DNA from: a virus
Direction: 5' to 3' (one strand)
IMG/VR virus record: IMGVR_UViG_3300032282_006987
Location: 1 to 41,492 of that record
DNA: 41,492 nucleotides
Under the pieces are notes generated by a model. The model was not told the origin of the DNA. It was given only the letters and a program-made list of their open reading frames with translations, and did not search any database. Positions 19,877-40,260 of this stretch are shown in pieces (the first letter of the stretch is position 1; each line of letters starts with the position of its first letter). A program made the position numbers and the translations under genes.

Positions 19877-19887
19877 AAAACAACTAT

Positions 19888-21274: not shown

Positions 21275-21295
21275 GGTTGTGTGAATATTTGTGAT

Positions 21296-26039: not shown

Positions 26040-26441
26040 ATGTATTCCGCAATATTACTGGACGAAAAATCTCAACTTGCTCTATCGTCGTGGGCAGATA
26101 AAAATATCAAGATCAATGGTGTTAGATTGCCGATTGTTGTTCGTGATAGTGGTTGGAATATGATTTGTCATCATATGACAATAAAGTTTGGCGGCACACC
26201 TGAGTTTGCAAAACAATATCTTGGCACAGAGCAAAAACTTGAAGTTACTCATTATGGTGTGAGTGATAAGGCAGTGGCTGTGCGTGTGGTGGGTTTTCAT
26301 AGTGAAAACAAGATTCCGCATATTACTGTAGCAGTGAATGCTAAAGGAGGCGGCAAACCAGTTGATAGCAACAAAATCACTGAATGGTTTGCAGTTGAAA
26401 AAGGTCCAACACTAAAAGGTGAAGTAAAAGAACTACAATGA
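26040..26441 (+). CDS. 2H-phosphoesterase-like protein
   Basis: This 133-residue protein carries two H-x-T motifs about 50 residues apart: H45-M-T47 in HHMTIKFGG and H94-I-T96 in PHITVAVN. That spacing and the hydrophobic setting resemble 2H phosphoesterases, including the cyclic phosphodiesterase domain of tRNA ligases, which opens the 2',3'-cyclic phosphate left by anticodon nucleases. It is small for the family. The kinase at 21296 lacks a 3'-phosphatase, and the RNA ligase at 28390 needs healed ends, so an end-healing role would fill the gap. The assignment is from two short motifs and context. Confidence 0.6.
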   Translation: MYSAILLDEKSQLALSSWADKNIKINGVRLPIVVRDSGWNMICHHMTIKFGGTPEFAKQYLGTEQKLEVTHYGVSDKAVAVRVVGFHSENKIPHITVAVNAKGGGKPVDSNKITEWFAVEKGPTLKGEVKELQ

Positions 26442-26685: not shown

Positions 26686-28308
26686 TTAAACAGTTGGACC
26701 AGATTCAGGGGTTGGATTATATGATAAAATCCACTTCAATGATTGTGACAATGTTGATTTTCTGTCGGTTCCTTGAACAGTGTGTACTGGTTTTTTCTTT
26801 GATACACTCAAGTCATATATATCTGTAGATGTGTCGTTGATCATAGCAATCTTCATTTTGGTATAATCAACCTTGGATTTATTTTTTGCTGGTTTCTTTA
26901 TTTTTGGTGGCAAGAAATATACCTTTTCATACTTGTCTGCGTTTTCAATGGTGTCCACAACAGTTTGTGGGTCTTTGAACTTGAATCTGGGACCAGAAGA
27001 CAGAATTTTGATAGTGTTCATCACCGAGTTTGTATCTGGATTTATACTCATGATATTTTTTGCTGCGTCTTGAGCATATGCCATAACATCTTCAAACTTA
27101 GCAAACTTGGCGGCTGGTTCGTGATAACGAATACGAATATTGACCCAAGCCAATGCTTGTAGTTGATATGATGTTAGTCCAACCTTTTGTGCTTCTTCGT
27201 GCAGAATCTTGACCAAGTTTTGACGTACCACATCATCTCCAAACAGTTTCATCACAACGCTATTCACAATACCTTCTTGTTTCTTTTTGAGTTGAGAGAT
27301 CTTTTTAGCAAGAGCAGCTTCTTCTGGAGAAAGTTTTGGTTTCTTTGGTTTGCCAGTGGCTTCATCTATTCCTCCATCATCTTCGGAACTCAAATATTGA
27401 ATCCATTCGGATACGTCTTCTTCTACCATTCTTTGCAGTGGCTTGTCAAAAAATACTCTGATCATCCAACGGTCCACGGTTGCTGGATCAATTTGACCTT
27501 CCCATTTTTTGCCGGGAAATACAAGATTCAAAAAGAAAGAGTTTATCTTTGTTCCACCGATTTTTAGCACGCCGCTTTGCAAATCTTTGTATAGTTGGTC
27601 TTTGTTGATTTTTGTACGATTGGCAAGATAGTATTTCACAAACAGATTGAAGTTTGGAATCTTTGCATTGGCAACGGTGATTTCACTAAAAACATCATCT
27701 TGACCTTTGCGAGCACCTTGTGCGACTTTACCACCCTTATAGTCTTTCTTTGGAACCAACAGATCAGCATAGTTTGATCCTTTGTTTTGGAAAGTCTTGA
27801 GATATTCTAAACTCTTTGCGTCCATGTTATTTTTTACATTGGCTGATAGCTGGCTCAACATAGCAATGCCTTCTGGCGTTTTTGAATCTTCGGTCACTGC
27901 TTTGTATAACTTGGCAGCTTCTAATATATTTTGGTCCAATGCAGTGTTGGCTGAACAATATGCACATGCTGCCAGAAACAAGCAAGCATCTGTTTCTCCC
28001 ATATTTTGGAAAATTAATTTGTTGAAGTTGTCATACCAATATGCATATGTGTCCAACTTTTGTTTCAGTTCTGGAGGCGCTTTGAGATAGTCGTCCACTT
28101 CTTTTTTCAAATTACCCATTTCCAATTTAATGGGAATCTCAACTTCCACCGATTTATTATCAACATTGAAACTGAGTTTAACTGGAAATGTGTCTTTTGA
28201 CTTGAAACTCGGTGATACAAGTTGATTATAAAAATCGGGTCCAGTCATGGCTTCAAGCAATTGGGCAATTTCAAAGTCATCCAGTTCAAGCATTTCGTTT
28301 AGATTCAT
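26686..28308 (-). CDS. Large protein of unknown function, the only minus-strand gene
   Basis: This 540-residue protein is the one clear coding region on the - strand. I do not recognise it. It starts MNLNEMLELDDFEIAQLLEAM, has no signal peptide or membrane segment, and is rich in Lys, Asp and hydrophobic helix-forming stretches. Residues about 105-135 (DACLFLAACAYCSANTALDQ) form a Cys- and Ala-rich helix pair. Residues about 315-345 form a charged coiled-coil-like segment (EEAALAKKISQLKKKQEG). The middle has KWEGQIDPATVDRWMIRVFF. Codon use looks like its neighbours. It is convergent with the 26438 gene and divergent from the RNA ligase, so it probably has its own promoter in 28309-28389. A virion or DNA-metabolism role cannot be decided. 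Confidence 0.75.
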   Translation of the reverse strand: MNLNEMLELDDFEIAQLLEAMTGPDFYNQLVSPSFKSKDTFPVKLSFNVDNKSVEVEIPIKLEMGNLKKEVDDYLKAPPELKQKLDTYAYWYDNFNKLIFQNMGETDACLFLAACAYCSANTALDQNILEAAKLYKAVTEDSKTPEGIAMLSQLSANVKNNMDAKSLEYLKTFQNKGSNYADLLVPKKDYKGGKVAQGARKGQDDVFSEITVANAKIPNFNLFVKYYLANRTKINKDQLYKDLQSGVLKIGGTKINSFFLNLVFPGKKWEGQIDPATVDRWMIRVFFDKPLQRMVEEDVSEWIQYLSSEDDGGIDEATGKPKKPKLSPEEAALAKKISQLKKKQEGIVNSVVMKLFGDDVVRQNLVKILHEEAQKVGLTSYQLQALAWVNIRIRYHEPAAKFAKFEDVMAYAQDAAKNIMSINPDTNSVMNTIKILSSGPRFKFKDPQTVVDTIENADKYEKVYFLPPKIKKPAKNKSKVDYTKMKIAMINDTSTDIYDLSVSKKKPVHTVQGTDRKSTLSQSLKWILSYNPTPESGPTV

Positions 28309-28352
28309 AAGTTTGTGTATAATAAATATATATCAAGATCCATAAAAAGTCC

Positions 28353-28380
28353 TTGACTTGTTGCTATTTTTGTTCATAGT
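28353..28380 (+). promoter_or_regulatory. Promoter TTGACT-N16-CATAGT before RNA ligase
   Basis: TTGACT (28353-28358) and CATAGT (28375-28380) are 16 bases apart, with TGTTCATA identical in place to the rIIA promoter. The ligase ATG at 28390 is nine bases after the -10, so the mRNA would be leaderless or nearly so. Confidence 0.72.
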
Positions 28381-28389
28381 ATAGTCATT

Positions 28390-29415
28390 ATGAGTGAACG
28401 TAAATTAGCCTCAATTCAAGTTATCAAAGAAATTCTGCCCATCGAAGGTGCAGACAAGATTGTTTGTGTAAAAATCCTTGGGTGGCAATGTGTGGCATTG
28501 AAGACGGAATTCAAAGTTAATGACCTTTGCGTATTTTTTGAAATTGACTCTGTTCTACCAATTGCCCAATGGAATGATCACTTGCGTAAAGAACCAAACA
28601 AACCATTGCGTATAAAAACTATACGACTTCGTGGACAATTGAGCCAAGGACTTGCATTGCCTCTTTCTATTATTCCAGCTGGAGAATATGAAGTGGGTCA
28701 AGACATAACCGCTTTGGTTGGTGTTGAAAAATACGAGCCTATTGTTCCTGCCCATCTATCTGGTATGGTCAAAGGCAACTTTCCTGCTTTCTTGCACAAG
28801 ACAGACGAAGTTCGTTTGCAATCTGAACCAAGGGTACTTGATGAAGCTATATCCAAAGGTCTTGTGCTCGTTGGCACACTCAAAATGGACGGTACAAGCT
28901 TTACTTCATACCGACGCGATGATGAGTTTGGTGTTTGTTCTCGCAACCTTGACTTAAAGGAAACAGAAGGTAATGCTCATTGGAGAATGGCACGCAAGTT
29001 GAAACTTGAAGAAATTCTTCGCAGCGAACCTCGTAATCTTTCTATTCAAGGAGAAATTTGCGGCCCATCTATTCAAGCAAATCGTCTTGGTTTATCGGAA
29101 TCTAAATTGTATCTTTTCAATCTATTTGATATAGACGCAGGGAAATATCTTTCTCATACCGAACTGTCTGCTTTTGCAGAAAAGCATATGTTGAATATGG
29201 TTCCAACTGTATATCGTCTTGATTTTGGCGGCGTTGTTGGTCCAAGAGATGTTAATCATTTACTCGATATTGCCAACAATCTAAACTATGACAATGGTAC
29301 ACCCGCCGAAGGCATTGTTTGGCGTTCTGCGTGTGAAACTTACAGCGATGTTCTCAAAGGTAGAATGAGTTTCAAGACCATCAGCAATCGTTTTCTTGAA
29401 AAATATAAAGAATGA
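28390..29415 (+). CDS. RNA ligase with N-terminal OB-like domain (DraRnl/Rnl5-like)
   Basis: This 341-residue protein is a nucleotidyltransferase-superfamily RNA ligase. The active-site lysine lies in KMDGTS (motif I, near residue 165). Motif III-like sequence is FGVCSRNLDL. IQGEICGPSIQANRLG and EGIVWRS match motifs IIIa and IV. SFKTISNRFL matches motif V. The first 140 residues form a separate domain of the kind found before the ligase core in the Deinococcus Rnl5 group, rather than the C-terminal domain of T4 Rnl1 or Rnl2. With the kinase and 2H-like protein it would reseal cut tRNAs. It stands alone after its own promoter. Confidence 0.88.
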   Translation: MSERKLASIQVIKEILPIEGADKIVCVKILGWQCVALKTEFKVNDLCVFFEIDSVLPIAQWNDHLRKEPNKPLRIKTIRLRGQLSQGLALPLSIIPAGEYEVGQDITALVGVEKYEPIVPAHLSGMVKGNFPAFLHKTDEVRLQSEPRVLDEAISKGLVLVGTLKMDGTSFTSYRRDDEFGVCSRNLDLKETEGNAHWRMARKLKLEEILRSEPRNLSIQGEICGPSIQANRLGLSESKLYLFNLFDIDAGKYLSHTELSAFAEKHMLNMVPTVYRLDFGGVVGPRDVNHLLDIANNLNYDNGTPAEGIVWRSACETYSDVLKGRMSFKTISNRFLEKYKE

Positions 29416-29457
29416 TCGTCGGATAATATACAAGGCTGTATATACATATATAAAAAG

Positions 29458-29486
29458 TTTTTTACGATTTGAGTTGTATATATAAT
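29458..29486 (+). promoter_or_regulatory. Possible promoter for the curli-like cassette
   Basis: TATAAT (29481-29486) lies 12 bases before the CsgF start, in very AT-rich sequence with only a run of T at the -35 place. It is weak, and it lacks the TTGAC[AT] element of the other promoters in the window. Confidence 0.3.
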
Positions 29487-29497
29487 ATGTATTTGCG

Positions 29498-29956
29498 ATG
29501 AAACTCGCAACATATATTATATTATTATTGGCACCATTCTGTCATGTTTATGGCAGTGACATGGTGCACAGTTTTAAGAGTTCTTCGTTCAACGGAGTCA
29601 ACTTCTCTGCCACAGCAATGACGATTGAGAACTTGGGACGCACAAGAAAACAGGCAGTAAAAGACCAAGCCAAAGCATCGGCTGAACAAGCCGCAGCACA
29701 AGCCCAGAATACCCCTTTAAACTCGTTTATAAACAATTTGCAGGCCAGAATATACTCACAGTTGGCCTCGCAGGTTACGGACAAGATATTCAATTCTTCC
29801 GGCGAAACGTTTGGTATAATTAATCTTCAAGGTGGTGCAACTGTTACTTGGCAGCGTAATGGTGATTTTGCAACACTTTATATAGTAGATCCGTCAAGCG
29901 GAAGCACAACTCAAATAACCGTTCCAGTCGGTTCCTTGACGCCACCAACCGGATGA
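29498..29956 (+). CDS. CsgF-like curli assembly protein
   Basis: This 152-residue secreted protein has a signal peptide (hydrophobic 3-16, cleavage near VYGS-D). After it, MVHSFKSSSFNG resembles the start of mature CsgF, which inserts into the CsgG channel and couples nucleation to secretion. The distal part (TPLNSFINNLQARIYSQL, then the beta segment NGDFATLYIVDPSSGSTTQI) also follows CsgF. An Ala/Gln-rich stretch (about 50-70) replaces the family's NSAQAQ region. It overlaps the csgG-like gene by four bases. The assignment is good at the level of domain order; sequence identity looks low. Confidence 0.8.
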   Translation: MKLATYIILLLAPFCHVYGSDMVHSFKSSSFNGVNFSATAMTIENLGRTRKQAVKDQAKASAEQAAAQAQNTPLNSFINNLQARIYSQLASQVTDKIFNSSGETFGIINLQGGATVTWQRNGDFATLYIVDPSSGSTTQITVPVGSLTPPTG

Positions 29957-30750
29957 CGAAGCATGTTTTACTTATTTTAATATTGTTATTAAGTGGATGC
30001 GGTTCTTTCCCCCAAAAGCCAAGAATCATTGATGCGCCCAAAACCCAATTTTCTCCAATGGAGAAAGAATTGAATGATCTACCAGAACTGGAAGGTCAAA
30101 AGATAACTATTGGGGTATATGGATTTGCGGATAAAACCGGCGCAAGAAAGACAGCAGACAATTATGCATCATTTTCTGCTGCTGTAACACAAGGAGCAGA
30201 AAGTTGGCTCATTGATGCTTTGCGCCAAGCGGGACACGGAGCGTGGTTTCAAGTATTGGAACGTGCAAGTTTGGATAATGTAATCAAAGAACGACAACTC
30301 ATTTCACAAACCAGAGAAACATTTCAAGGCAGAAACTCCGAGAAACTAACTCCAATGCTTTTTGCCGGAATATTGGCAGAAGGTGGAATTATTGGATATG
30401 ATAGTAATATTCTGACGGGAGGTGCGGGAGCAAGTATATTGGGTATATCAACCAACGCTCAATATCGCAAAGATGTAGTTACAGTTTCGTTGAGATTTGT
30501 GAGCGTACAAACGGGCGAGATACTTTTGAGCACAGCCGTAACAAAAACAATTTCCAGTGTAGCAATATCCGGCAACTTATTCAAATTTTATGAACATGGC
30601 ACATTGCCAGTAGAATCTGAATTGGGGTTAACCGCCAATGAACCAAATACCATTGCAGTTAGAAGTGCAATAGAAAAGGCAGTCATAGATATAATCAATG
30701 AAGGTGAAAGAATGAAACTCTGGAAATACAAACCCAACAAAACACAATGA
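29953..30750 (+). CDS. CsgG-like outer-membrane curli secretion channel
   Basis: This 265-residue lipoprotein has a lipobox LLSGC with acylated C16. Its body follows the CsgG family: KITIGVYGFADKTGARK near residue 50, SFSAAVTQGAESWLIDAL, FQVLERASLDNVIKERQL, then GGIIGYDSNILTGGAGA and the strand pair YRKDVVTVSLRFVSVQTGEIL. CsgG forms a nonameric pore that exports unfolded curlin subunits. Length is close to E. coli CsgG (277). It is translationally coupled on both sides (ATGA overlaps). CsgE, CsgC and the regulator CsgD are not visible. The family call is firm. Confidence 0.92.
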   Translation: MTKHVLLILILLLSGCGSFPQKPRIIDAPKTQFSPMEKELNDLPELEGQKITIGVYGFADKTGARKTADNYASFSAAVTQGAESWLIDALRQAGHGAWFQVLERASLDNVIKERQLISQTRETFQGRNSEKLTPMLFAGILAEGGIIGYDSNILTGGAGASILGISTNAQYRKDVVTVSLRFVSVQTGEILLSTAVTKTISSVAISGNLFKFYEHGTLPVESELGLTANEPNTIAVRSAIEKAVIDIINEGERMKLWKYKPNKTQ

Positions 30751-31559
30751 ACAAACTAATAACAACCCTAATGGTTATGTGTTTTACTCTGATCGCGTTT
30801 GGTCAGAATCAAATATATGTCAATCAAGTCACTACTGCTGGTAGCATGACTTTTGTCCAAGTTGGGAGTCTCAATAAAATTGGAACTTCGGCTGGGGCAC
30901 CATCAGACATCACAGGTGATAGCATCATCTTTGAAAATCGCCAAATCGGCAATAACAACAACACGCTATTCTCCATTACTGGTGCCAATAATCTAAAATT
31001 TTTGTCAGCATATACCGGAGATAACAACGACCAAAGATATTACTTTGATGGAGCAACCAATAATATGAACTTCTCTTTTACTGGAAACAGTAATAAGTTT
31101 CTATTCAATAAAGATACCACGGTTGATCATACGTCGGATACTGACACTTCAAAAGCAACCTTATCGTTTTCAGATTTGAAGTTTAATGTAACGGGTAATT
31201 CCAATATACTGAAGTTTGCGGTTGATGGTGGAAAATATAATTATTTGGATTATACTATCATTGGCAATTCCAACACGATCAAATCGACTCAAATTGGTAT
31301 GGTTGGTGGTGCAATTGCTGCAAAGGATGGACACGAACAAACTGTTTCTATTACCGGAAGCAGCAACGATGTAACCATCTATCAAGCCGGTTTAGAAAAG
31401 CAAACATTCAACTACACACTGCTTGGCAGCACCAATACCGTTCGTATTGTGCAAACAACACTCGGATATGCTCCACTCATGACATTGAATCAAAATGGCT
31501 CCAATGGGCCAGCAGGAACAGCAAGCACAACTGCTACAATATCACCACCATCTCTGTAA
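30747..31559 (+). CDS. Curlin-like repeat fibre protein
   Basis: This 270-residue protein has a signal peptide (hydrophobic 4-18, cleavage near AFGQ). It then carries short repeats built on G-[NSD]-x-N turns at about residues 68, 79, 91, 102, 113, 150, 173, 204 and 227, each followed by alternating polar and hydrophobic strands with Gln or Thr, as in curlin amyloid repeats. It lies directly after the CsgG-like channel with an ATGA overlap, so it is the best candidate for the exported subunit. It may be a major fibre protein or a nucleator like CsgB. The repeat spacing is looser than in CsgA (about 22 residues). Confidence 0.72.
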   Translation: MNKLITTLMVMCFTLIAFGQNQIYVNQVTTAGSMTFVQVGSLNKIGTSAGAPSDITGDSIIFENRQIGNNNNTLFSITGANNLKFLSAYTGDNNDQRYYFDGATNNMNFSFTGNSNKFLFNKDTTVDHTSDTDTSKATLSFSDLKFNVTGNSNILKFAVDGGKYNYLDYTIIGNSNTIKSTQIGMVGGAIAAKDGHEQTVSITGSSNDVTIYQAGLEKQTFNYTLLGSTNTVRIVQTTLGYAPLMTLNQNGSNGPAGTASTTATISPPSL

Positions 31560-31561
31560 TA

Positions 31562-32665
31562 ATGAGATCAAGTGTTATAGCGGCAATGATTGGAGTTCTA
31601 TGCTCCAGTCTATTTGGCGCAGCCGGTAAAATAACCGAGGTGACTGGCCCTACGCAAGTTAGTAGGGCCAGCACCAAATTGGAGGGTAAAATTGATGTGG
31701 GCATTGAAATGGACGACACCATTGAAACCCTAAAAGGTAGAGCAGGCATAACATTTGAAGATGGCACAATAGTGCAATGCACAGAGTTCAGTAAACTAAT
31801 TATAGATACATTTGTGTATGATCCAGCAAGTGGCAAAGGCAAGATTGGACTAAAAGCATCGTTGGGTACTGTGAGATATGCATCCGGATTGATTGCCAAG
31901 AATAATAAAGAAGAAGTGAAGGTAAAAACTCCCACAGCATCTATATCTGTGCGTGGCACGGACTTTTCGATGACGGTAGACGAACTTGGCAGAAGTCTTG
32001 TTATTCTGCTACCATCCAGACCAGAACTTGGCCCACCGGTGGTTGGGCAAATAACTGTCAGCAATGGTCTGGGAACGGTTGTATTGACCAAGGCATATCA
32101 AGCAACATTTGTAGCATCATCAACTGTTGCACCGTCTGCACCAGTCTTGCTAAATCTTGACGATGAAAGTCATGTCAACAATATGTTGCTCATAGACACT
32201 CCAAAGAGTGTAAAGGAAGCGGCAAAGGAAGCTAAGAAAGCGTCTGCACAAGTATCCAAGTCCGATGATGAAGGGTCGAACAAAAAGAAACCAGAGAGCA
32301 AGACATCTATTCCACAGGCGGCAGAAACAACTACCGCAACAGCACAGCAACAAGAGCAACCAACACCAACAGAAACGAAACTGGATATCAACGCACTAAA
32401 GCCGGAAACAAATAAAACTGTTATGGAAGCAATATCCAAGAAGGTGGAATCTCCAACCGTATCTATACCAACAACTACAACAAATAATGGCTTTACTACG
32501 GACGGAACTCGTGCTATCTTATATGTATCCAATGGTAACAATGTTGTATGGTATACTCTCAAATATGACACCAATGCCAATATCAACATAACAACCAAAG
32601 ATGGCTCCACAGATTATCCTCTTAATTTCGGCGGAAAACTGAAGATCAATATCATACAAAAATGA
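31562..32665 (+). CDS. FecR-domain secreted protein
   Basis: This 367-residue protein has a signal peptide (1-20, cleavage near LFGAAG) and a FecR-type beta domain (about 22-190). The domain includes GRAGITFEDGTIVQ, the tandem turn SLGTVRYASG and TPTASISVRGTDFSM, the usual family signature. A long Lys/Glu/Thr/Gln-rich disordered linker follows (about 205-310), then a small C-terminal beta domain. Bacterial FecR-domain proteins of this type are often found beside CHASE2 adenylate cyclases, which is the case here: the next gene overlaps by four bases. It is probably periplasmic or surface-exposed and may sense or bind the exported fibre. Confidence 0.85.
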   Translation: MRSSVIAAMIGVLCSSLFGAAGKITEVTGPTQVSRASTKLEGKIDVGIEMDDTIETLKGRAGITFEDGTIVQCTEFSKLIIDTFVYDPASGKGKIGLKASLGTVRYASGLIAKNNKEEVKVKTPTASISVRGTDFSMTVDELGRSLVILLPSRPELGPPVVGQITVSNGLGTVVLTKAYQATFVASSTVAPSAPVLLNLDDESHVNNMLLIDTPKSVKEAAKEAKKASAQVSKSDDEGSNKKKPESKTSIPQAAETTTATAQQQEQPTPTETKLDINALKPETNKTVMEAISKKVESPTVSIPTTTTNNGFTTDGTRAILYVSNGNNVVWYTLKYDTNANINITTKDGSTDYPLNFGGKLKINIIQK

Positions 32666-34722
32666 AGTCGCACATACTAAAAATATTTGGAGTTGGGTTA
32701 GTAATACTGGTAGGGTTGATTGCCTTGAGAATATACGACCCATATCCGATAGAAGTATTGCGTTTAAAAGGATTGGATTATTATCAACGCACACAAGACA
32801 AAGTTAAAAGCGAAAATATCATCATTGTTGAAATTGATGAAAATAGTTTGGAAGAAAAGGGACAATGGCCTTGGCCGAGAAATGAATTGGCAGCTGGTAT
32901 CAAGAAAGCATTTGAAAATGAAGCAGCCACTGTAGTATTACCAATTATATTTGCAGAAAAAGATAGAATGGGTGGAGATGCAGCATTTGTGGAAATATTG
33001 GGAAAAGTACCAGTAATCACCGCACAATCTGCGGCGGTAAAAGGCAAAGGCGTGCCAGTGCCAAGAGGTATGGCAACGATTGGTGGAAGTGCAGATGGAT
33101 GGTTATATGATTATCCCAATGCAATTGGACCAGTAAAAGAAATAGGCGAATCATCTGCTGGCGTGGGAATGTTATTGACCGCACCTGAACTTGACGGCGT
33201 GGTACGAAGATTGCCATTGGTGGTACAAGTAAAAAAAGAAAAATATCCAACCATGCCATTGGAAATATTACGTGTGTTTGGAGGCGAACCAAGCTATCAA
33301 GCAAAAATAAATGAAGCAGGAGTTCAAGCCATAAGAGTAAAAGGCTCTACTCCAATCAACACAGATGCGAATGGCAGAGTATGGGTGAACTTCAAGTACA
33401 AGTTCGATAACATGTCCTACACAGACAAGGACTGGAGTCGATTGAAAGGAAAGATTGCGGTAATGGCACTTACAGCAGAAGGACTGGCCAACACAGTGGC
33501 AACTCCTGTAGGAACAGCATATGGACACGAAGTCAGCATGCAGACGCTGCAAATGTTGGTTGATGGAAACAGATTAGAAAGAAAAGCAGAGTTTGATTTA
33601 TATGAACTGGCGGTTGGAGTATTGCTTGGATTAATTCTTATAACAGTGGCCGCATATCTTGGCTATGTTTATAATGGAATATTGGTAAAGGCATCTGTGG
33701 CTGGGTGTATGTTTGTTGGATTTTATTTGTTCAAGAAGCATGGTTATTTGATTGATTATACTTGGCCGATTATGGCTGCATTTTTGCCGTGGGTTGGTGC
33801 CATCTTTATGAGATTTGTTATGGAGTTCAAGTTGAAGATGCAAATCAAGAAGCAGTTTGGAACATATCTTTCTCCAGCACTGGTTGAAAAACTACAAAAA
33901 AATCCAGGTTTGCTCAAACTTGGTGGCGATGAAAGAGAATTGAGCATCATGTTCACAGACGTTCGTGGATTTACATCTATTTCAGAGCATTATGGCAAGA
34001 ATGTACAAGGTCTGACCATGATCATGAACAGATACATGACTGCCATGACCGAAGCCATTCTGAAAAATGATGGTACTCTAGATAAATATATAGGTGATGC
34101 TCAGATGGCATTTTGGAATGCACCATTGGATGACCCACATCACGCAAAAAATGCCACAAAAACAGCAATGCAGATGCTAAAAAGACTAGATGAATTCAAT
34201 GCCGAAATAGCAGCCGAAGGTGTGCCAGCATTTGGTATGGGATTGGGTATAAATACAGGTCAAGTGGTGGTAGGAAATATGGGTTCTAGCCAACGATTTG
34301 ATTATACTTGCCTTGGCGACCATGTAAATCTTGCTTCTAGATTAGAAGGTCAAAGCAAACCATATGGTGTGCGTATTGTGATTGGCCCAAGAACGTTTGA
34401 GCACATCAGAAATGATTATCAATGCTTTGAGATGGATTGTATCGCCGTCAAAGGTAAAAAAGATGGCACGCGAATTTATACAGTACTTGAAAATAACTTG
34501 AGTGAAAGCCAGTATAATATAGTTGTATCTGGTCATTTTGCTTTTCTAAATGATTATAGAATGCAAAGATGGGATGGTGCAATATCTCATGCCAACGAAC
34601 TCATGACGCAGAATAAAGAAATGAAAAAGTATTATGAAATGATGGTCGAAAGAATAATGGAACTTCGTACCAGCAATCTTGACTCAAGTTGGGATGGTGT
34701 TTTTAGAGCAAATTCTAAATAA
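32662..34722 (+). CDS. CHASE2-domain membrane adenylate cyclase (class III)
   Basis: This 686-residue protein has an N-terminal membrane anchor (about 5-22) and an extracytoplasmic CHASE2 sensor domain (about 25-310, with IIIVEIDENSLEEKGQWPWPR and GVVRRLPL). Transmembrane helices fall in the region 316-395, and a class III cyclase catalytic domain starts near 425. Metal-binding Asp residues are in FTDVRGF (431-437) and YIGDAQMAFWNAP. The transition-state Asn/Arg region is DHVNLASRLEG near 552. The product is predicted to be cAMP, but cGMP cannot be ruled out by eye. It overlaps the FecR gene by four bases. A nucleotide cyclase in a phage is very unusual. It could raise cAMP in the infected host. 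Confidence 0.92.
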   Translation: MKSHILKIFGVGLVILVGLIALRIYDPYPIEVLRLKGLDYYQRTQDKVKSENIIIVEIDENSLEEKGQWPWPRNELAAGIKKAFENEAATVVLPIIFAEKDRMGGDAAFVEILGKVPVITAQSAAVKGKGVPVPRGMATIGGSADGWLYDYPNAIGPVKEIGESSAGVGMLLTAPELDGVVRRLPLVVQVKKEKYPTMPLEILRVFGGEPSYQAKINEAGVQAIRVKGSTPINTDANGRVWVNFKYKFDNMSYTDKDWSRLKGKIAVMALTAEGLANTVATPVGTAYGHEVSMQTLQMLVDGNRLERKAEFDLYELAVGVLLGLILITVAAYLGYVYNGILVKASVAGCMFVGFYLFKKHGYLIDYTWPIMAAFLPWVGAIFMRFVMEFKLKMQIKKQFGTYLSPALVEKLQKNPGLLKLGGDERELSIMFTDVRGFTSISEHYGKNVQGLTMIMNRYMTAMTEAILKNDGTLDKYIGDAQMAFWNAPLDDPHHAKNATKTAMQMLKRLDEFNAEIAAEGVPAFGMGLGINTGQVVVGNMGSSQRFDYTCLGDHVNLASRLEGQSKPYGVRIVIGPRTFEHIRNDYQCFEMDCIAVKGKKDGTRIYTVLENNLSESQYNIVVSGHFAFLNDYRMQRWDGAISHANELMTQNKEMKKYYEMMVERIMELRTSNLDSSWDGVFRANSK

Positions 34723-34742
34723 ACTTTTTATAAAACATAATT

Positions 34743-35210
34743 ATGAAATATATGAAAACAAAACTACTATTAGCAATACTTCCGTTGGCACTGACTTCGT
34801 GTGCCAACTCTCAAGGTGATGTATTTGGACGCAAAGCAGATGCTGGTGCCATCATTGGCGGCATGGCTGGCACCGTGATTGGTGCTTATAACGGAAATCC
34901 TCTCAAGGGCGCATTGATTGGTGCTGGCGTTGGGTTGGGTGCTGGAGCCATTGCAGATGCCAACGATGCTCGTCAAGCAATACCTTCTCCGTCAATTCCA
35001 CAACCCACACCACCTCCGCAAGTTGTGATACGAGAAGAAATACCAATGGTTGTTATGGAAACTCCAATAATCATCGAAGAAAGAGTTTGGGCTGGAAATG
35101 ATCTGTGGATAATTTCATATCATGGTATTCGTGGAGCAAATGGACGTGTTAGATATGTAAACCATGTTCCATTTCATCGTCGTTTTATTCGTGGACCACA
35201 CGGAAGATAA
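34743..35210 (+). CDS. Glycine-zipper lipoprotein
   Basis: This 155-residue protein has a lipoprotein signal (LPLALTSC; lipidated Cys near residue 20). A glycine-zipper segment (AGAIIGGMAGTVIGAY ... LIGAGVGLGAGAIA, about 34-76) can insert in or across a membrane. A Pro-rich linker and a basic C-terminal beta region follow. Such proteins sit in the outer membrane of diderm bacteria. A second ATG three codons in (MKTKLLL) is a possible start. It is the last gene of the curli/FecR/cyclase cassette and is followed by a terminator. Confidence 0.78.
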   Translation: MKYMKTKLLLAILPLALTSCANSQGDVFGRKADAGAIIGGMAGTVIGAYNGNPLKGALIGAGVGLGAGAIADANDARQAIPSPSIPQPTPPPQVVIREEIPMVVMETPIIIEERVWAGNDLWIISYHGIRGANGRVRYVNHVPFHRRFIRGPHGR

Positions 35211-35916: not shown

Positions 35917-36234
35917 ATGGCAGACGAAAAAGACTTATTCAAAGAATTTTTAACTGGTGGATGGATAGTAGCTGCCGTCGGTGCATTGGGAATGCTGGCA
36001 CGCAATCTTTTAGATGGTGTTGAAAGAAGTCACAAAGAACATGCCAAAAGAATATTGGCAGCAGCAATATGTTCTACCATTGCTTGGTTTATTCTTGAAC
36101 AAGTTGAAGTTAGTAGCTTGACAAAAGCAATCAGTTATGGTGTGGTAGGTGTAGTTAGTCCTGAAATTTTACAAGGTGTTACGACTTTGGCAAAAAGATT
36201 TGCCAAAAAGCCGCAAGATCTTATAAAGAAATAA
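35917..36234 (+). CDS. Holin-like membrane protein
   Basis: This 105-residue protein has two or three hydrophobic segments: GGWIVAAVGALGMLARNLL (about 14-32), ILAAAICSTIAWFILEQV (about 47-64) and a weaker ISYGVVGVVSPEILQGV (about 71-87). Charged ends and a Lys-rich tail flank them. This matches small class holins of the LydA/holin superfamily III kind, which form the lesions that time lysis. It is preceded by the long structured leader and followed four bases later by the first tRNA. No endolysin is next to it. Confidence 0.75.
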   Translation: MADEKDLFKEFLTGGWIVAAVGALGMLARNLLDGVERSHKEHAKRILAAAICSTIAWFILEQVEVSSLTKAISYGVVGVVSPEILQGVTTLAKRFAKKPQDLIKK

Positions 36235-36238: not shown

Positions 36239-36314
36239 GCGGTAGTATCTCAGTTGGTAGAGAGCGAGTTTTCCAAACTTGATGTCGCAGGTTCGATCCC
36301 TGTCTACCGCTCCA
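36239..36314 (+). tRNA. tRNA-Gly(UCC)
   Basis: Full cloverleaf: acceptor GCGGTAG/CTACCGC, anticodon loop TTTCCAA, canonical T-loop TTCGATC, CCA encoded. Two blocks (36243-36263, 36284-36305) are identical to tRNA-Ala at the far end of the array. Confidence 0.95.
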
Positions 36315-36317
36315 TTT

Positions 36318-36382
36318 TGTACTAGGTTTGGTATCCAACCAAACCGAAGATTCATGACAAAAAGCATGAACGGTGTACACCA
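36318..36382 (+). ncRNA. tRNA-like fold without T-arm, ending in CCA
   Basis: TGTAC (36318-36322) can pair with GTACA (36375-36379), which is followed by CCA. Inside are perfect hairpins GGTTTGG/CCAAACC (36325-36345) and TTCATG/CATGAA (36351-36370). There is no T-arm. The rest of the gap (36383-36440) holds CGCCA/TGGCG and TTGAG/CTCAA hairpins. Confidence 0.3.
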
Positions 36383-36440
36383 ATTTGCAAACGCCACGTC
36401 ATTGGCGAAATTGAGGTTGACTCAAATGACAATTTTAAAT

Positions 36441-36526
36441 GGCTCATTATACCGCTAAGGACGCGGTTCGCACTGTAAATGCGATGCCTTCGGGCTGGGT
36501 TGGTTCAATACCGACATGAGCCACCA
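36441..36526 (+). tRNA. tRNA-Tyr(GUA)
   Basis: Class II cloverleaf with acceptor GGCTCAT/ATGAGCC, anticodon loop CTGTAAA and a long variable arm, as expected for bacterial tRNA-Tyr. CCA is encoded. Confidence 0.95.
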
Positions 36527-36538
36527 TTTTTAGAATAC

Positions 36539-36626
36539 GGAAAATTGGCAGAGTGGTCTAATGCAGGACTTTGCTAAAGTCCCGATCCGAAAGGGTCCAT
36601 AGGTTCGAATCCTATATTTTCCGCCA
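36539..36626 (+). tRNA. tRNA-Ser(GCU)
   Basis: Class II: acceptor GGAAAAT/ATTTTCC, anticodon stem-loop GGACT-TTGCTAA-AGTCC, long variable arm, discriminator G, CCA encoded. Confidence 0.95.
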
Positions 36627-36637
36627 AATTTATATAT

Positions 36638-36712
36638 GCCGAATAAACATAAATGGTAATGTGCTAGTCTTGTAAACTAGATAAGCGGGTTCGATTCCCG
36701 CATTTGGCTCCA
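36638..36712 (+). tRNA. tRNA-Thr(UGU)
   Basis: Acceptor GCCGAAT/ATTTGGC with one G-U, anticodon arm CTAGT-CTTGTAA-ACTAG, T-arm GCGGG-TTCGATT-CCCGC, CCA encoded. Confidence 0.93.
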
Positions 36713-36714
36713 CT

Positions 36715-36789
36715 TTGTAGGTCGCAATATTCTGAATTATAATTCAGCGAAGACATTCCAATTATTGCGTCAGTGGAATTCGCCTATAA
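36715..36789 (+). ncRNA. Inter-tRNA unit 1, closed by a 7-bp helix
   Basis: TTGTAGG (36715-36721) pairs with CCTATAA (36783-36789), one G-U, closing a 75-base unit. Inside are a second helix CGCAATA (36723-36729) with TATTGCG (36763-36769) and the 16-base palindrome 36732-36747. It starts three bases after a tRNA CCA. It has no CCA and no anticodon arm. Confidence 0.45.
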
Positions 36790-36797
36790 CAATTTAT

Positions 36798-36883
36798 GCC
36801 ATCTCGCCGGAACGGTGACGGGTCTACCTGCAAAGTAGAAGCACACGAAAGTGTAGAGTGTTCAATTCACTCAGATGGCTCCA
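36798..36883 (+). tRNA. tRNA-Cys(GCA) with class II long variable arm
   Basis: Acceptor GCCATCT/AGATGGC, D-stem CCG/CGG, anticodon arm TCTAC-CTGCAAA-GTAGA, T-arm GAGTG-TTCAATT-CACTC, discriminator T as usual for Cys, CCA encoded. The variable region is 16 bases with an ACAC-GAAA-GTGT hairpin. That is a class II feature not expected in tRNA-Cys. Confidence 0.88.
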
Positions 36884-36889
36884 ATTTAT

Positions 36890-36965
36890 GCAGTAGTAGT
36901 TCAATGGTAGAATGCTTCGTTGCCAACGAAGAGGTCTGCGGGTTCGAGTCCCGCCTACTGCACCA
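36890..36965 (+). tRNA. tRNA-Gly(GCC)
   Basis: Acceptor GCAGTAG/CTACTGC, anticodon arm CTTCG-TTGCCAA-CGAAG, T-arm GCGGG-TTCGAGT-CCCGC, CCA encoded. Confidence 0.96.
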
Positions 36966-36967
36966 AT

Positions 36968-37089
36968 TTTGATAGTGTATGTGTTTTCGTCTCTAAAATC
37001 TTACGGCACATGGAAGACGTGTAACGGGTTCAAAGTCCGACCACTCTGCATTGAGCAGAGTGAGTAAGCCAACCATATACATTATCAAA
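36968..37089 (+). ncRNA. Inter-tRNA unit 2, closed by a 16-bp helix
   Basis: Bases 36968-36983 pair with 37074-37089 over 16 continuous bp including two G-U pairs. Inside are CACTCTGC/GCAGAGTG (37042-37062), CGTCT/AGACG, and a T-arm-like CGGG-TTCAAAG-TCCG. The unit starts three bases after the previous CCA and ends seven before tRNA-Phe. The G-U pairs favour an RNA fold over a DNA site. Confidence 0.6.
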
Positions 37090-37096
37090 TATTTTT

Positions 37097-37170
37097 GGAC
37101 GATTGGTGAAAAAGTATCACTGCTGACTGAAGATCAGTAATTCCGGTTGCAAGATCCGGGTCGTCCACCA
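37097..37170 (+). tRNA. tRNA-Phe(GAA) with altered T-loop and D-loop
   Basis: Acceptor GGACGAT/GTCGTCC, anticodon loop CTGAAGA, CCA encoded. The T-loop reads TGCAAGA with a T-T mismatch at its base instead of the usual TTC start, and the D-loop (AAAAAGTAT) lacks the GG pair, so the normal elbow contacts are missing. Confidence 0.85.
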
Positions 37171-37172
37171 TT

Positions 37173-37285
37173 TTGTATTTATAAGTTGCGGTTTTACCCT
37201 TCTCAACATTGCTATTGCATAGGAGAGTAGAAAAAATATAATACTAACCGGTGTTTCCCTCGAGTCGGTTCAATGGTAAATACAA
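37173..37285 (+). ncRNA. Inter-tRNA unit 3, closed by a 9-bp helix
   Basis: TTGTATTTA (37173-37181) and TAAATACAA (37277-37285) are perfect complements closing 113 bases. Inside, AACCG/CGGTT and TTCTC/GAGAG hairpins are visible. No tRNA cloverleaf and no CCA. Confidence 0.45.
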
Positions 37286-37296
37286 TTCATTTTTAT

Positions 37297-37371
37297 TGCG
37301 ATATAGTGTCAAGGTAGCACAGCCCGACTGTTAATCGGGAAGTAATGGTTCAAGTCCATTTTTCGCAGCCA
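37297..37371 (+). tRNA. tRNA-Asn(GUU), first copy
   Basis: Acceptor TGCGATA/TTTCGCA with one mismatch, anticodon arm CCCGA-CTGTTAA-TCGGG, T-arm AATGG-TTCAAGT-CCATT, discriminator G, CCA encoded. Confidence 0.92.
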
Positions 37372-37377
37372 TTTTAT

Positions 37378-37453
37378 TGTCCCATAGCTCAGTTGGCAGA
37401 GCAAGAAACTGTTAATTTCAAGGTCGCACGTTCGAGCCGTGCTGGGACAGCCA
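37378..37453 (+). tRNA. tRNA-Asn(GUU), second copy
   Basis: Acceptor TGTCCCA/TGGGACA, D-stem GCTC/GAGC, anticodon loop CTGTTAA with an A-A mismatch at the base of its stem, T-arm GCACG-TTCGAGC-CGTGC, CCA encoded. It differs widely from the first Asn copy, so it is not a recent duplicate. Confidence 0.9.
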
Positions 37454-37461
37454 ATTTATAT

Positions 37462-37540
37462 GGAAGTCAAGCTACAGTGGACGGGCATTCGACTCTTAAT
37501 CGAACTATTCGTGTGGGTTCAACTCCCACGGCTTCCACCA
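37462..37540 (+). tRNA. tRNA-Lys(CUU)
   Basis: Acceptor GGAAGTC/GGCTTCC, anticodon arm TTCGA-CTCTTAA-TCGAA, T-arm GTGGG-TTCAACT-CCCAC, CCA encoded. D-arm and T-arm closely match tRNA-Lys(UUU) at 37634, a likely duplication. Confidence 0.93.
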
Positions 37541-37545
37541 ATTTT

Positions 37546-37622
37546 AAGCAAGAAGAGGCTGTTAAAGTCAGCATGGACATTACAAGATGCTAAATGGTGA
37601 TAAGAGAATTCACATCTTGCTT
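37546..37622 (+). ncRNA. Inter-tRNA unit 4, closed by an 8-bp helix
   Basis: AAGCAAGA (37546-37553) pairs with TCTTGCTT (37615-37622); a T-G pair extends it outward. The 77-base length is tRNA-like. Inside are GTGA/TCAC at the T-arm position and either GCTG/CAGC or AGCAT/ATGCT. No CCA and no TTC T-loop. Confidence 0.45.
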
Positions 37623-37633
37623 GAAAAATTTAT

Positions 37634-37712
37634 GGAACTAAAGCCACAGTGGACGGGCAGCGGTCTTTTAAACCGTTAATTCGTGTGGGTTCAACTCCCA
37701 CTGGTTCCACCA
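37634..37712 (+). tRNA. tRNA-Lys(UUU)
   Basis: Acceptor GGAACTA/TGGTTCC, anticodon loop CTTTTAA on GCGGT/ACCGT, T-arm GTGGG-TTCAACT-CCCAC, CCA encoded. Confidence 0.94.
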
Positions 37713-37718
37713 ATTTAT

Positions 37719-37801
37719 AGCAGAGACAAGCCAAGGGACGCTAACTGCGCTCATAACGCAGCCGAAAGGTATGATGTGTTCGATTCACATCTCTGCTTCC
37801 A
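37719..37801 (+). tRNA. tRNA with CAU anticodon (Met or Ile2), unusual variable region
   Basis: Acceptor AGCAGAG/CTCTGCT, anticodon arm CTGCG-CTCATAA-CGCAG, T-arm ATGTG-TTCGATT-CACAT, CCA encoded. The variable region is 12 bases with a CC-GAAA-GG mini-hairpin, and the discriminator is T. Both are atypical for tRNA-Met and tRNA-Ile2. Confidence 0.85.
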
Positions 37802-37808
37802 TTTTTAT

Positions 37809-37884
37809 CAGTGTGTGGTGCCAAAGGTTGGCGATTCCGCTTGGAACGGAAATTATGTTGGTTCGAGTCCAATCACACTGACCA
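37809..37884 (+). tRNA. tRNA-Pro(UGG)
   Basis: Acceptor CAGTGTG/CACACTG with the C1-G72 pair typical of tRNA-Pro, anticodon arm TTCCG-CTTGGAA-CGGAA, discriminator A, CCA encoded. Confidence 0.95.
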
Positions 37885-37894
37885 TTTTAACATA

Positions 37895-37940
37895 ACACAG
37901 TAGTATTCTTGATTTATATCAATGACAATAATGGCTGTGT
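37895..37940 (+). ncRNA. Inter-tRNA unit 5, short
   Basis: ACACAG (37895-37900) pairs with CTGTGT (37935-37940), closing 46 bases with a TTGAT/ATCAA hairpin. It also contains 37903-37912, a perfect 10-base complement of 37961-37970 in the following tRNA-like gene. Confidence 0.35.
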
Positions 37941-37949
37941 GAAATTTAT

Positions 37950-38026
37950 CGCGACGAAGGTCAAGAATACGAGCCACCGTCTATGGTGACGGGCATTAGG
38001 TGGTGAAAGTCCATCCGCTGCGACCA
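37950..38026 (+). tRNA. Odd tRNA with a six-base anticodon loop, identity uncertain
   Basis: A 77-base cloverleaf with CCA: acceptor CGCGACG/CGCTGCG (one A-C mismatch), D-stem GGT/GCC, anticodon stem CCGTC/GACGG around a six-base loop TATGGT, T-stem GGTGG/CCATC with loop TGAAAGT. A normal anticodon cannot be read; His or Pro would be guesses. It may be a pseudogene or a non-translational tRNA-like RNA. Confidence 0.55.
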
Positions 38027-38027
38027 A

Positions 38028-38117
38028 TTTGGTGTGATACGGGAACGCAGTTATTCCGGTCACTATGAAACTGCGCGGGGTAACTTAGGCCCGAGAGTCA
38101 AGGTGCGACACATCAAA
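38028..38117 (+). ncRNA. Inter-tRNA unit 6, closed by a 9-bp helix
   Basis: TTTGGTGTG (38028-38036) pairs with CACATCAAA (38109-38117), one G-U. It starts two bases after a CCA. Inside is a perfect CGCAGTT/AACTGCG hairpin (38046-38075) and GGG/CCC pairing. 90 bases, no CCA. Confidence 0.5.
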
Positions 38118-38123
38118 AATTTT

Positions 38124-38197
38124 GGGGATATAGTATAAGGGTATTACACTGCGCTGTCTACGCAGATATCGGATTTCGATTATCCGTATCCTCGCCA
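38124..38197 (+). tRNA. tRNA-Asp(GUC)
   Basis: Acceptor GGGGATA/TATCCTC, anticodon arm CTGCG-CTGTCTA-CGCAG, T-arm CGGAT-TTCGATT-ATCCG, discriminator G, CCA encoded. Confidence 0.95.
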
Positions 38198-38236
38198 CTT
38201 TGAGTCGCAATATGGCAACATATATGCCGATTTTAT

Positions 38237-38312
38237 GGGAATATAGTGAAATTGGATATCACGACGCTTTGCGGAAGCGTTATTCTAGGTTCGAATCCTA
38301 GTATTCCCACCA
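38237..38312 (+). tRNA. tRNA-Arg(GCG)
   Basis: Acceptor GGGAATA/TATTCCC, anticodon arm ACGCT-TTGCGGA-AGCGT, T-loop TTCGAAT, CCA encoded. G34 in place of the usual A34 (inosine) is noteworthy. The 39-base gap before it repeats the word GTCGCAATAT found in unit 1. Confidence 0.92.
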
Positions 38313-38318
38313 TTTTAT

Positions 38319-38395
38319 GGAGACGCTGGCAAAGTAGAGCCGACCTCGCTTCGAACGAGTTATAACTATAGGTTAGAGTCCTATCGTCTCCACCA
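38319..38395 (+). tRNA. tRNA-Arg(UCG) with altered T-loop
   Basis: Acceptor GGAGACG/CGTCTCC, D-stem GGC/GCC with loop AAAGTAGA lacking GG, anticodon loop CTTCGAA on CTCG/CGAG, T-arm ATAGG-TTAGAGT-CCTAT lacking C56, CCA encoded. Confidence 0.88.
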
Positions 38396-38396
38396 T

Positions 38397-38600
38397 TTGA
38401 ATAGCAGCTCGGAGTGTAGAAGATTGTTTCCATCTTCGGTACGAGCATGGGGTTAAACCATCGGCGGAAAAATAAGCAACGAAAAGCCTATGGGTTCATA
38501 ACAATAGGTTTATTGGGAAACATTAAACTTGTTGGAATCTATGCGCAACTAGGAAACTCGCTATAGTGTAGCTATATAAAGCAAAGCTACATCTATTCAA
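38397..38600 (+). ncRNA. Inter-tRNA unit 7, 204 bases, closed by an 8-bp helix
   Basis: TTGAATAG (38397-38404) pairs with CTATTCAA (38593-38600). Inside are GAAGAT/ATCTTC within GCTCG/CGAGC, ATGG/CCAT, CCTAT/ATAGG and GTAGCT/AGCTAC hairpins. No cloverleaf and no reading frame of note. Likely a structured RNA of unknown kind. Confidence 0.45.
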
Positions 38601-38605
38601 TTAAT

Positions 38606-38702
38606 TTTTGGATATGTTGCGGAACGTCTAGACAATTAACGCAAAGCCAGTCAAAGAGAATTAACATTCTTGATTGTAAGTTCAAATCTTACCTATCCAA
38701 AA
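38606..38702 (+). ncRNA. Inter-tRNA unit 8, tRNA-like with T-arm but no CCA
   Basis: TTTTGGATA (38606-38614) pairs with TATCCAAAA (38694-38702) over 9 bp. One base before the 3' arm lies a perfect, canonical T-arm GTAAG-TTCAAAT-CTTAC (38676-38692). The middle has TTGCG/CGCAA and GAGAAT-TAAC-ATTCTT hairpins but no seven-base anticodon loop. Confidence 0.5.
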
Positions 38703-38714
38703 TTTTTATTTTAC

Positions 38715-38802
38715 AGAGAGTTAAGGGCACTGCTATTGAAATATTGCAATAGGTTCCGTAGGCAATACCTCCAAAGTATCCACGCATGGCTAAACACTCT
38801 CT
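38715..38802 (+). ncRNA. Inter-tRNA unit 9, closed by a 7-bp helix
   Basis: AGAGAGT (38715-38721) pairs with ACTCTCT (38796-38802). It encloses CTATTG/CAATAG. 88 bases, no CCA. Confidence 0.42.
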
Positions 38803-38811
38803 ACTATTTAT

Positions 38812-38885
38812 GGCCCAGTCTGTTAAGGGTAGGCAATTGCGCTTTCAACGCGAAAATCGGAGTTCGACTCTCCGCTGGGCTACCA
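38812..38885 (+). tRNA. tRNA-Glu(UUC)
   Basis: Acceptor GGCCCAG/CTGGGCT, anticodon loop CTTTCAA, T-arm CGGAG-TTCGACT-CTCCG, CCA encoded. Confidence 0.94.
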
Positions 38886-38886
38886 A

Positions 38887-39012
38887 TTTGTCATCATTGA
38901 GGGCATATCTATGAAGTAATAGTGGTGTAGTGGAAGCACAGGGGCTGAAATCTTGCGCATAGGTTCGATTCCTATCAAAGAAAAATAGTTTTGAGCGACC
39001 TGAAATGACAAA
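38887..39012 (+). ncRNA. Inter-tRNA unit 10, contains tRNA-like D- and T-arms
   Basis: TTTGTCAT (38887-38894) pairs with ATGACAAA (39005-39012). Inside, GTGT-AGTGGAA-GCAC resembles a D-arm and ATAGG-TTCGATT-CCTAT (38959-38975) is a canonical T-arm, but the sequence around them does not form an acceptor stem and no CCA follows. A possible decayed tRNA inside a longer RNA. Confidence 0.5.
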
Positions 39013-39014
39013 AT

Positions 39015-39290
39015 TTTTTGTTGAGGAGGTTGGCCTAGAGGCAGCAATCCTATAATGAGTAGAGTCCGTACTCCAAGCTAGTAAAAGTGCAGCGATGAAT
39101 TCTCGAATTCTGCATTATCCATTACCAACTATAATGGTTTTGCTCGGAGGCAATTCAGACGATTGAACCGATAAGAACTAAGGAATTGACCTTAGCTCGG
39201 TGCCGATAATGTAAGCGCAAATATAGTTGTTATATATTTGGCCGCGAAACGGTGTTAGCTCTTTTGGCGTAATAGCACACTCTTCAAAAA
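39015..39290 (+). ncRNA. Inter-tRNA unit 11, large structured region
   Basis: 276 bases without a gene. TTTTTG (39015-39020) can close with CAAAAA (39285-39290). Inside: GAGT/ACTC, paired GAATTC words with GCAG/CTGC (about 39089-39114), ACCGA/TCGGT enclosing CTAAGG/CCTTAG, CAAATATA/TATATTTG and CCG/CGG. Size and site recall large RNAs found in phage tRNA arrays (GOLLD, ROOL), but I cannot match either. Confidence 0.45.
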
Positions 39291-39299
39291 TATTTAAAT

Positions 39300-39378
39300 G
39301 GCGATATCGTCTATGTTTGGAAAGGACACCTTATTCTCAATAAGAAAAGCTCGGTTCGACTCCCGAGTATCGCCACCA
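39300..39378 (+). tRNA. tRNA-Glu(CUC)
   Basis: Acceptor GGCGATA/TATCGCC, D-stem GTC/GAC with a 13-base loop, anticodon loop TTCTCAA closed by CTTA/TAAG, T-stem CTCGG/CCGAG with an eight-base loop TTCGACTC, CCA encoded. The anticodon reading is centred on the stem and should be checked. Confidence 0.82.
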
Positions 39379-39386
39379 TTTTATTA

Positions 39387-39414
39387 TTGACATATAATGA
39401 TATATATTTAATGT
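39387..39414 (+). promoter_or_regulatory. Weak putative promoter inside the tRNA array
   Basis: TTGACA (39387-39392) then TAATGT (39409-39414) after 16 bases, before tRNA-Gln. The -10 is a poor match. Confidence 0.35.
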
Positions 39415-39425
39415 AATCACATTAT

Positions 39426-39500
39426 TGTCCCTTGGTGTAATTGGCAACACAGCTGACTTTGACTCAGCTATTTCTGGTTCAAATCCAGAAGGGACAGCCA
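39426..39500 (+). tRNA. tRNA-Gln(UUG)
   Basis: Acceptor TGTCCCT/AGGGACA, anticodon arm GCTGA-CTTTGAC-TCAGC, T-arm TCTGG-TTCAAAT-CCAGA, discriminator G, CCA encoded. Confidence 0.95.
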
Positions 39501-39506
39501 ACTTTT

Positions 39507-39698: not shown

Positions 39699-39707
39699 TT
39701 TATTCTT

Positions 39708-39887: not shown

Positions 39888-39890
39888 TAT

Positions 39891-40157: not shown

Positions 40158-40178
40158 TTAGATAGTTAAATATTTTAT

Positions 40179-40254: not shown

Positions 40255-40260
40255 TTTTAC

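Follow-up and report, generated by a model that had tools for sequence, protein, structure and literature searches.

Why would a bacteriophage carry curli-like export genes next to a FecR protein and an adenylyl cyclase? The question is raised by positions 29498-35210 of IMG/VR virus record IMGVR_UViG_3300032282_006987, whose 41,492 nucleotide stretch analysed here is called the window, and in which an earlier note, made from the sequence alone, had described six such genes as a single phage cassette. We conclude that the cassette is real and intact and that its kind has been described before; the window adds a member from another T4-like lineage. We consider it rather probable that the phage uses the cassette as a type VIII (curli) export line and that the cassette also supplies the second messenger controlling it. 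This reading draws directly on the identities of the genes, their export signals, their fixed order, the intact active site of the cyclase, purifying selection, and the spread of the cassette over distantly related T4-like phages.

The cassette and its conserved order

All six genes lie on the + strand and are recognised under the identities given in that note, five by Pfam and the curlin gene by a family profile. They encode a 152 residue CsgF-like protein with a signal-like N-terminus (29498-29956; PF10614 CsgF, 5.1e-12; phrog_35372, 1.1e-28); a 265 residue CsgG-like outer-membrane pore protein with the lipobox LSGC (29953-30750; PF03783 CsgG, 1.4e-48), which also aligns over almost its full length with the solved E. 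coli CsgG (1.4e-44); a 270 residue curlin-repeat protein, the putative fibre, with a signal-like N-terminus and eleven GxxN (G-x-x-N) motifs (30747-31559); a 367 residue exported FecR-domain protein (31562-32665; PF04773 FecR, 3.6e-9; phrog_37870, 4.8e-66); a 686 residue CHASE2-class III adenylyl cyclase (32662-34722; CHASE2, 6.1e-38; Guanylate_cyc, 4.7e-21); and a 155 residue glycine-zipper lipoprotein with the lipobox LTSC (34743-35210; PF13441 Gly-zipper_YMGG, 7.5e-7, 29.2 bits against a cut-off of 28.9). The note had proposed profile searches as a check, and both CsgG and the cyclase match. The junctions are also as it described them: a 4 nt overlap (ATGA) links csgF to csgG, csgG to the curlin gene and fecR to the cyclase gene; the first base of fecR lies three bases past the end of the curlin stop, and the lipoprotein gene comes last, 20 nt past the cyclase stop. 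Signal-like or lipobox starts are present in CsgF, CsgG, curlin, FecR and the glycine-zipper lipoprotein.

The components expected of type VIII secretion are recognisable to different degrees. The CsgG pore lipoprotein is supported by Pfam, by the solved CsgG and by its lipobox, and CsgF by Pfam. As a single sequence the curlin-like protein of the window has no Pfam match, and its assignment as a curlin-repeat substrate comes from the family instead: the profile of an 18-member phage curlin family matches the solved curlin-repeat protein 8c50 (2.1e-15), and 7 of the 18 members match PF07012 Curlin_rpt (best 7e-8). Its predicted structure, made from an alignment of the window and viral-contig loci only, is nearly all-strand (mean predicted local distance difference test score 76.5), and a fold search with this model returned no significant match. 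Of the five core cassette genes, that for the curlin changes fastest, its non-synonymous divergence (dN) being ~0.45 where the others show 0.06-0.23; a product exposed at the surface would be expected to behave in this way. A Pfam scan found no CsgD, CsgE or CsgC among the cassette genes of the window, which is a genome fragment; published phage type VIII secretion cassettes likewise lack all three (PMC9599517).

Scans of IMG/VR gave at least 598 confirmed cyclase relatives (the best 80 of which were kept) and 58 CsgG relatives, and 94 of the fetched loci hold both csgF and the cyclase, corresponding to 79 distinct records after subtraction, by hand, of 15 loci lying on the same contig as another. 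The synteny across viral genomes that the note had asked about is kept throughout: the order CsgF-CsgG-curlin-FecR-(curlin)-cyclase occurs in 94 of 94 loci with a median spacing of -4 to +1 nt, a share that describes loci fetched by similarity and not a random sample. A second curlin gene stands between FecR and the cyclase in 9 of these loci and is absent from the window, where fecR and the cyclase overlap directly. The glycine-zipper gene directly follows the cyclase in 10 of the 94, and because these are found only among the closer relatives of the window, the lipoprotein is probably accessory. Ratios of non-synonymous to synonymous substitution (dN/dS) of ~0.06-0.18 for csgF, csgG, fecR and the cyclase indicate purifying selection. 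Mis-annotation or a chance cluster is ruled out by the profile matches together with the conserved synteny.

Nor is the cassette an assembly artefact. A chimeric join at about 29450 or 35250, which the note had named as a possible fault, is ruled out by single alignments to independent contigs that run across both ends: position 29450 is spanned by L056 (window 26788-30747, 85%) and L055 (26656-30759, 82%), and position 35250 by L055 (34426-36317, 82%) and L082 (35222-36319, 83%). The flanking genes are indeed those of a phage, with a T4-like set along the whole window (DnaB-type helicase, ribonucleotide reductase, rIIA, rIIB, family B polymerase, clamp loader, RNA ligase), and base use shows no obvious break, the GC content of the cassette being ~0.39-0.42 and that of the rest of the window 0.35-0.43.

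In the arrangement we propose, CsgG would be the outer-membrane pore with CsgF seated on it, and the curlin-repeat protein would be the exported, amyloid-type substrate. We infer that this substrate forms fibres and that FecR, once exported to the periplasm, partners the CHASE2 sensor from outside the cytoplasm; the sensor would in turn govern how active the inner-membrane adenylyl cyclase is. The product, cyclic AMP (cAMP), may then adjust export or the membrane during infection so that the infected cell becomes coated or aggregated, and the phage might benefit from the clustering of new hosts or the blocking of competitors. The roles raised in the earlier note (surface change, superinfection block, matrix, host cAMP) may apply here and parallel published hypotheses.

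A different use of the pore was proposed for the Methylophilales phage Melnitz, in which CsgG/CsgF would be reused as a gated, pinholin-like lysis pore, with a structural argument for a narrowed phage pore (PMC9004378); the other genes would then only time its opening. The next gene after the cassette in the window, separate from it, is holin-like (35917-36234, + strand; 105 residues with two transmembrane-like segments; phrog_6384 holin, 4.3e-5; Pfam holin matches below cut-off), which suggests that the region could be lysis-related but at the same time supplies a separate holin candidate and so counts against such a use of CsgG. An outer-membrane CsgG pore alone would not open the inner membrane, which also counts against lysis. 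The published argument, furthermore, relied on missing csgA and csgB, whereas a curlin-repeat protein is present in 94 of 94 loci and its family matches a solved curlin. We regard a lysis pore as unlikely.

FecR and the CHASE2 cyclase

If the cassette is an export line under second-messenger control, that control would reside in its FecR and cyclase genes. By hydropathy, FecR of the window has a single, signal-like hydrophobic segment (residues 4-22) with the FecR domain after it; no cytoplasmic N-terminal anti-sigma part precedes the segment, and no match to Sigma70_r4_2, as expected of a FecI-type partner sigma factor, passed the cut-off in 11 cassette phage records. A FecIR iron/anti-sigma system was rejected on these two grounds. 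They also bear on a published option in which the pore serves nutrient or siderophore uptake with FecR as an iron-linked regulator, and in which small molecules could enter through CsgG if the pore is ungated (PMC9599517, PMC7029224). Uptake, moreover, would not need the conserved curlin, and the closest bacterial counterparts sit with adhesins and RTX proteins instead of iron transport genes; we hold this option to be very improbable.

Those bacterial contexts bear out the statement in the note that FecR and a CHASE2 cyclase form a known bacterial pair. FecR lies directly upstream (same strand, at most 500 nt from the cyclase) in 23 of the 80 nearest bacterial cyclase loci, and in three of the four FecR proteins scanned from such pairs, the FecR part forms the N-terminal head of a large lectin, cadherin or RTX protein. 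At one locus of a marine alphaproteobacterium (L161, 6075-22334), the cyclase stands beside a fusion of a cyclic nucleotide monophosphate (cNMP)-binding domain with HlyD, two small cNMP-binding proteins, two ABC exporters, a second HlyD and a FecR-RTX protein, possibly a cAMP-controlled type I secretion system; cyclase neighbours of the same cNMP-binding kind are found at L185, L194, L197 and L200, making five marine loci. Because the bacterial pairs adjoin large adhesins or RTX proteins and cNMP-binding genes, the comparison suggests, by analogy, that FecR beside a CHASE2 cyclase is a control unit for the export of surface proteins (adhesins) and does not belong to iron regulation. Judged from gene neighbourhoods, phages appear to combine this unit with curli export.

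Hydropathy indicates one N-terminal and three central transmembrane-like segments around CHASE2 in the cyclase. The enzyme carries the full residue set of class III adenylyl cyclases, with two metal Asp (D433, D479), the adenine Lys (K475), Asn (N556) and Arg (R560); D433, K475, D479 and R560 are invariant in all 113 full-length viral cyclases and N556 in 112 of them. By these residues the active site is intact, and the enzyme is predicted to make cAMP. In one close relative, the 297 kb contig G004, the cyclase gene (L055, 10001-12868) is split near residue 591 by a 267 residue open reading frame that looks homing-endonuclease-like by eye, and the first part of the catalytic domain is unusually divergent; an Rfam search of the insertion found no intron family.

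Phylogenetically, 39 representative viral cyclases are split from 39 representatives of the nearest bacterial cyclases by one branch with a Shimodaira-Hasegawa-like approximate likelihood ratio test (SH-aLRT) support of 99. The nearest cellular cyclases, which are 31-38% identical to that of the window, are nearly all alphaproteobacterial, and for that reason the ultimate source of the phage cyclase is probably cellular; no cellular donor with an assembled cassette was found among the 80 nearest bacterial cyclase loci. Such an affinity would also be in keeping with a host-derived relic or a recent passenger without function. That explanation is contradicted by the grouping of the viral cyclases apart from the nearest bacterial ones, by the order and active site kept across divergent phages, and by the low dN/dS, and we give it almost no weight.

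A candidate cAMP-binding protein

No cNMP-binding gene was identified in the window, which extends 6.8 kb past the cyclase. Of 50 related records, 8 encode a protein of ~218 residues, here termed CNB-TM and apparently undescribed, in which a cNMP-binding domain, with the phosphate-cassette residues usual for such domains, is followed by a hydrophobic C-terminal part. Its model matches the cNMP-binding domains of CRP, PKA and HCN proteins, the C-terminal part being of low confidence. A scan for CNB-TM returned 22 viral contigs, 11 of which carry cassette genes; most of the others stop short of the expected cassette position, the exception being L236, with no cassette gene within ~8 kb, and L234 being borderline. 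The gene is divergent from csgF and adjoins it in five contigs (L235, L238, L239, L240, L241), and in close relatives of the window it lies in a tRNA array farther from the cyclase, ~13 kb downstream in G004 and ~15 kb in G038, a position beyond the end of the window; other coordinates are 1225-1863 (- strand) in L212 and 1396-2049 (+ strand) in L217. No CNB-TM relatives were found in 50,697 phage records, and a search of Melnitz and the Pelagibacter phage HTVC008M for a cNMP-binding protein gave no match. A second, weak cNMP match in G038 belongs to a different small cupin-like protein and was set aside.

We tentatively suggest, as a possibility well below the export reading itself, a closed phage-encoded circuit in which FecR would cue the CHASE2 cyclase, cAMP would bind CNB-TM, and CNB-TM would adjust curli export or the membrane, and the carriers would be jumbo and other T4-like Bacteroidota phages. 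A CRP-type transcription factor was rejected as the phage-encoded cAMP receptor, the cNMP hits having a hydrophobic C-terminus and no DNA-binding domain match.

Two rival explanations concern the cyclase and its signal. The cyclase alone might matter, phage cAMP rewiring host transcription via a CRP-type regulator while the curli genes are passengers or outputs; the intact, conserved cyclase and the lack of an own cNMP-binding protein in most cassette phages searched speak for this, but the curli genes are never lost in 94 loci and are under purifying selection, which leaves it, in our judgement, a minor contender. Alternatively, a Pycsar-like system could act against competing phages, the cyclase giving the signal and CNB-TM harming the membrane on superinfection. 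PADLOC has models that fit both proteins, PycC for the cyclase domain (5.3e-28) and PycTIR for the cNMP-binding part of CNB-TM, whose C-terminal part is hydrophobic; these PADLOC matches, however, fall on generic domains, most cassette phages searched are without CNB-TM, and the cyclase has the adenylyl-type Lys475 in place of the published cytidylate/uridylate cyclase residue sets (PMC11224242). The cassette is accordingly not assigned to Pycsar, and a role of this kind seems quite improbable.

The reading of the cassette as a cAMP-controlled curli export line must itself be tempered by several observations: no CsgE-like gate was found among the cassette genes, no cNMP-binding protein was found in most of the cassette phages searched, CsgG, CsgF and curlin occur in none of the 80 nearest bacterial cyclase loci (fetched flanks), and Melnitz-infected cultures showed no clumping (PMC9004378).

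Phage lineage, host and known systems

The polymerase of the window is 97-98% identical to those of G004 and G040 and only 32-34% identical to those of HTVC008M, Melnitz, G002, G003 and G006 (G001 and G005 gave no match). The nearest relatives of the G004 terminase are in Microcystis phage Mel-JY01 (52%) and Flavobacterium phage immuto (51%). By these sequence comparisons the window is assigned to a T4-like lineage other than that of HTVC008M and Melnitz, with the 297 kb contig as a near relative. Genes of the window (29 gene starts) and of G004, G038, G001, G002 and G005 are preceded by Shine-Dalgarno motifs at frequencies close to background or lower, as in the Flavobacterium phage; in Melnitz, HTVC008M and Mel-JY01 the motifs are clear. 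The upstream bases of the window are A-rich, with peaks at -11, -13 and -7. Because Shine-Dalgarno sites are typically absent and A is enriched at -14 to -11 in Bacteroidota (PMC6847099, PMC3155529), a Bacteroidota host is likely. The Bacteroidota-type promoter TTTG...TAnnTTTG gave no signal in the window (4 matches against 3.0 expected).

Other features of the window include an array of 21 tRNA genes (36239-40336) with many short interspersed stretches, the relative G038 having more tRNA genes than this. Near the array are a polynucleotide-kinase-like gene (21260-21742), a tRNA-ligase-CPD-like gene (26040-26441; weak, below cut-off) and an RNA ligase gene (28390-29415), possibly an RNA repair set. 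Glycosyltransferase (GT7C, GT10-like), methyltransferase and DUF6395 genes at 14324-20922 may form another surface-modifying block. A 540 residue protein is encoded on the - strand amid + strand genes (26686-28308), with weak family matches below cut-off.

The earlier note knew of no phage with a FecR/CHASE2-cyclase pair or a curli exporter, and here it must be corrected. A protein search of phage records found the same cassette in HTVC008M (KC465899) and Melnitz (MZ577097), and it was described, wholly or partly, between 2020 and 2022: CsgF/CsgG were reported in pelagimyophages, where 'sibling capture' was proposed (PMC7029224); the Melnitz report proposed the lysis pore (PMC9004378); and the full module with FecR and adenylate cyclase was reported from podoviruses and myoviruses, the pelagiphage module related to the window cassette being expressed in metatranscriptomes (PMC9599517). 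A T4-like genome assigned to Bacteroidetes was also reported with csg genes (PMC7198788). What we add is a different T4-like lineage with a likely Bacteroidota host, the adhesin-export reading of FecR/CHASE2, and CNB-TM. The known hosts of the module, SAR11 and OM43, are hard to manipulate, and its occurrence in many contigs of a Bacteroidota-like T4 lineage could open the way to tractable hosts such as Flavobacterium; a conserved, apparently active cyclase with a candidate phage cAMP-binding partner makes phage-controlled surface secretion a testable proposal.

Among the closest known systems, the pelagiphage and methylophage cassettes have the same genes, order and strand as the window (CsgG 48-49%, cyclase 42% identical in HTVC008M/Melnitz). 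The window differs in having no second curlin, in having an RNA ligase (Pfam and PHROG matches) and not a histidine kinase upstream, in its added glycine-zipper lipoprotein, and in its backbone, with its divergent polymerase and lack of Shine-Dalgarno sites; in published cassettes the second curlin is frequent but not universal, and the upstream histidine kinase belongs to the podovirus version (PMC9599517). The marine Bacteroidetes-assigned genome TARA_ERS488589_N000003 is also described as T4-like with csg genes, and FecR and the cyclase are unmentioned in its report (PMC7198788). The csg system of E. coli shares CsgG, CsgF and curlin repeats, whereas the window cassette has FecR and a CHASE2 cyclase and none of CsgD, CsgE or CsgC was found in it. 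With Pycsar the cassette shares a class III cyclase and, in some relatives of the window, a distinct cNMP-binding protein of membrane type, but it differs in the adenylyl-type residue, the CHASE2 sensor, FecR and the curli genes. Finally, the bacterial FecR/CHASE2 loci place FecR directly upstream of the cyclase as the window does, but there cadherin, lectin or RTX proteins take the place that curli has in the window as the exported partner.

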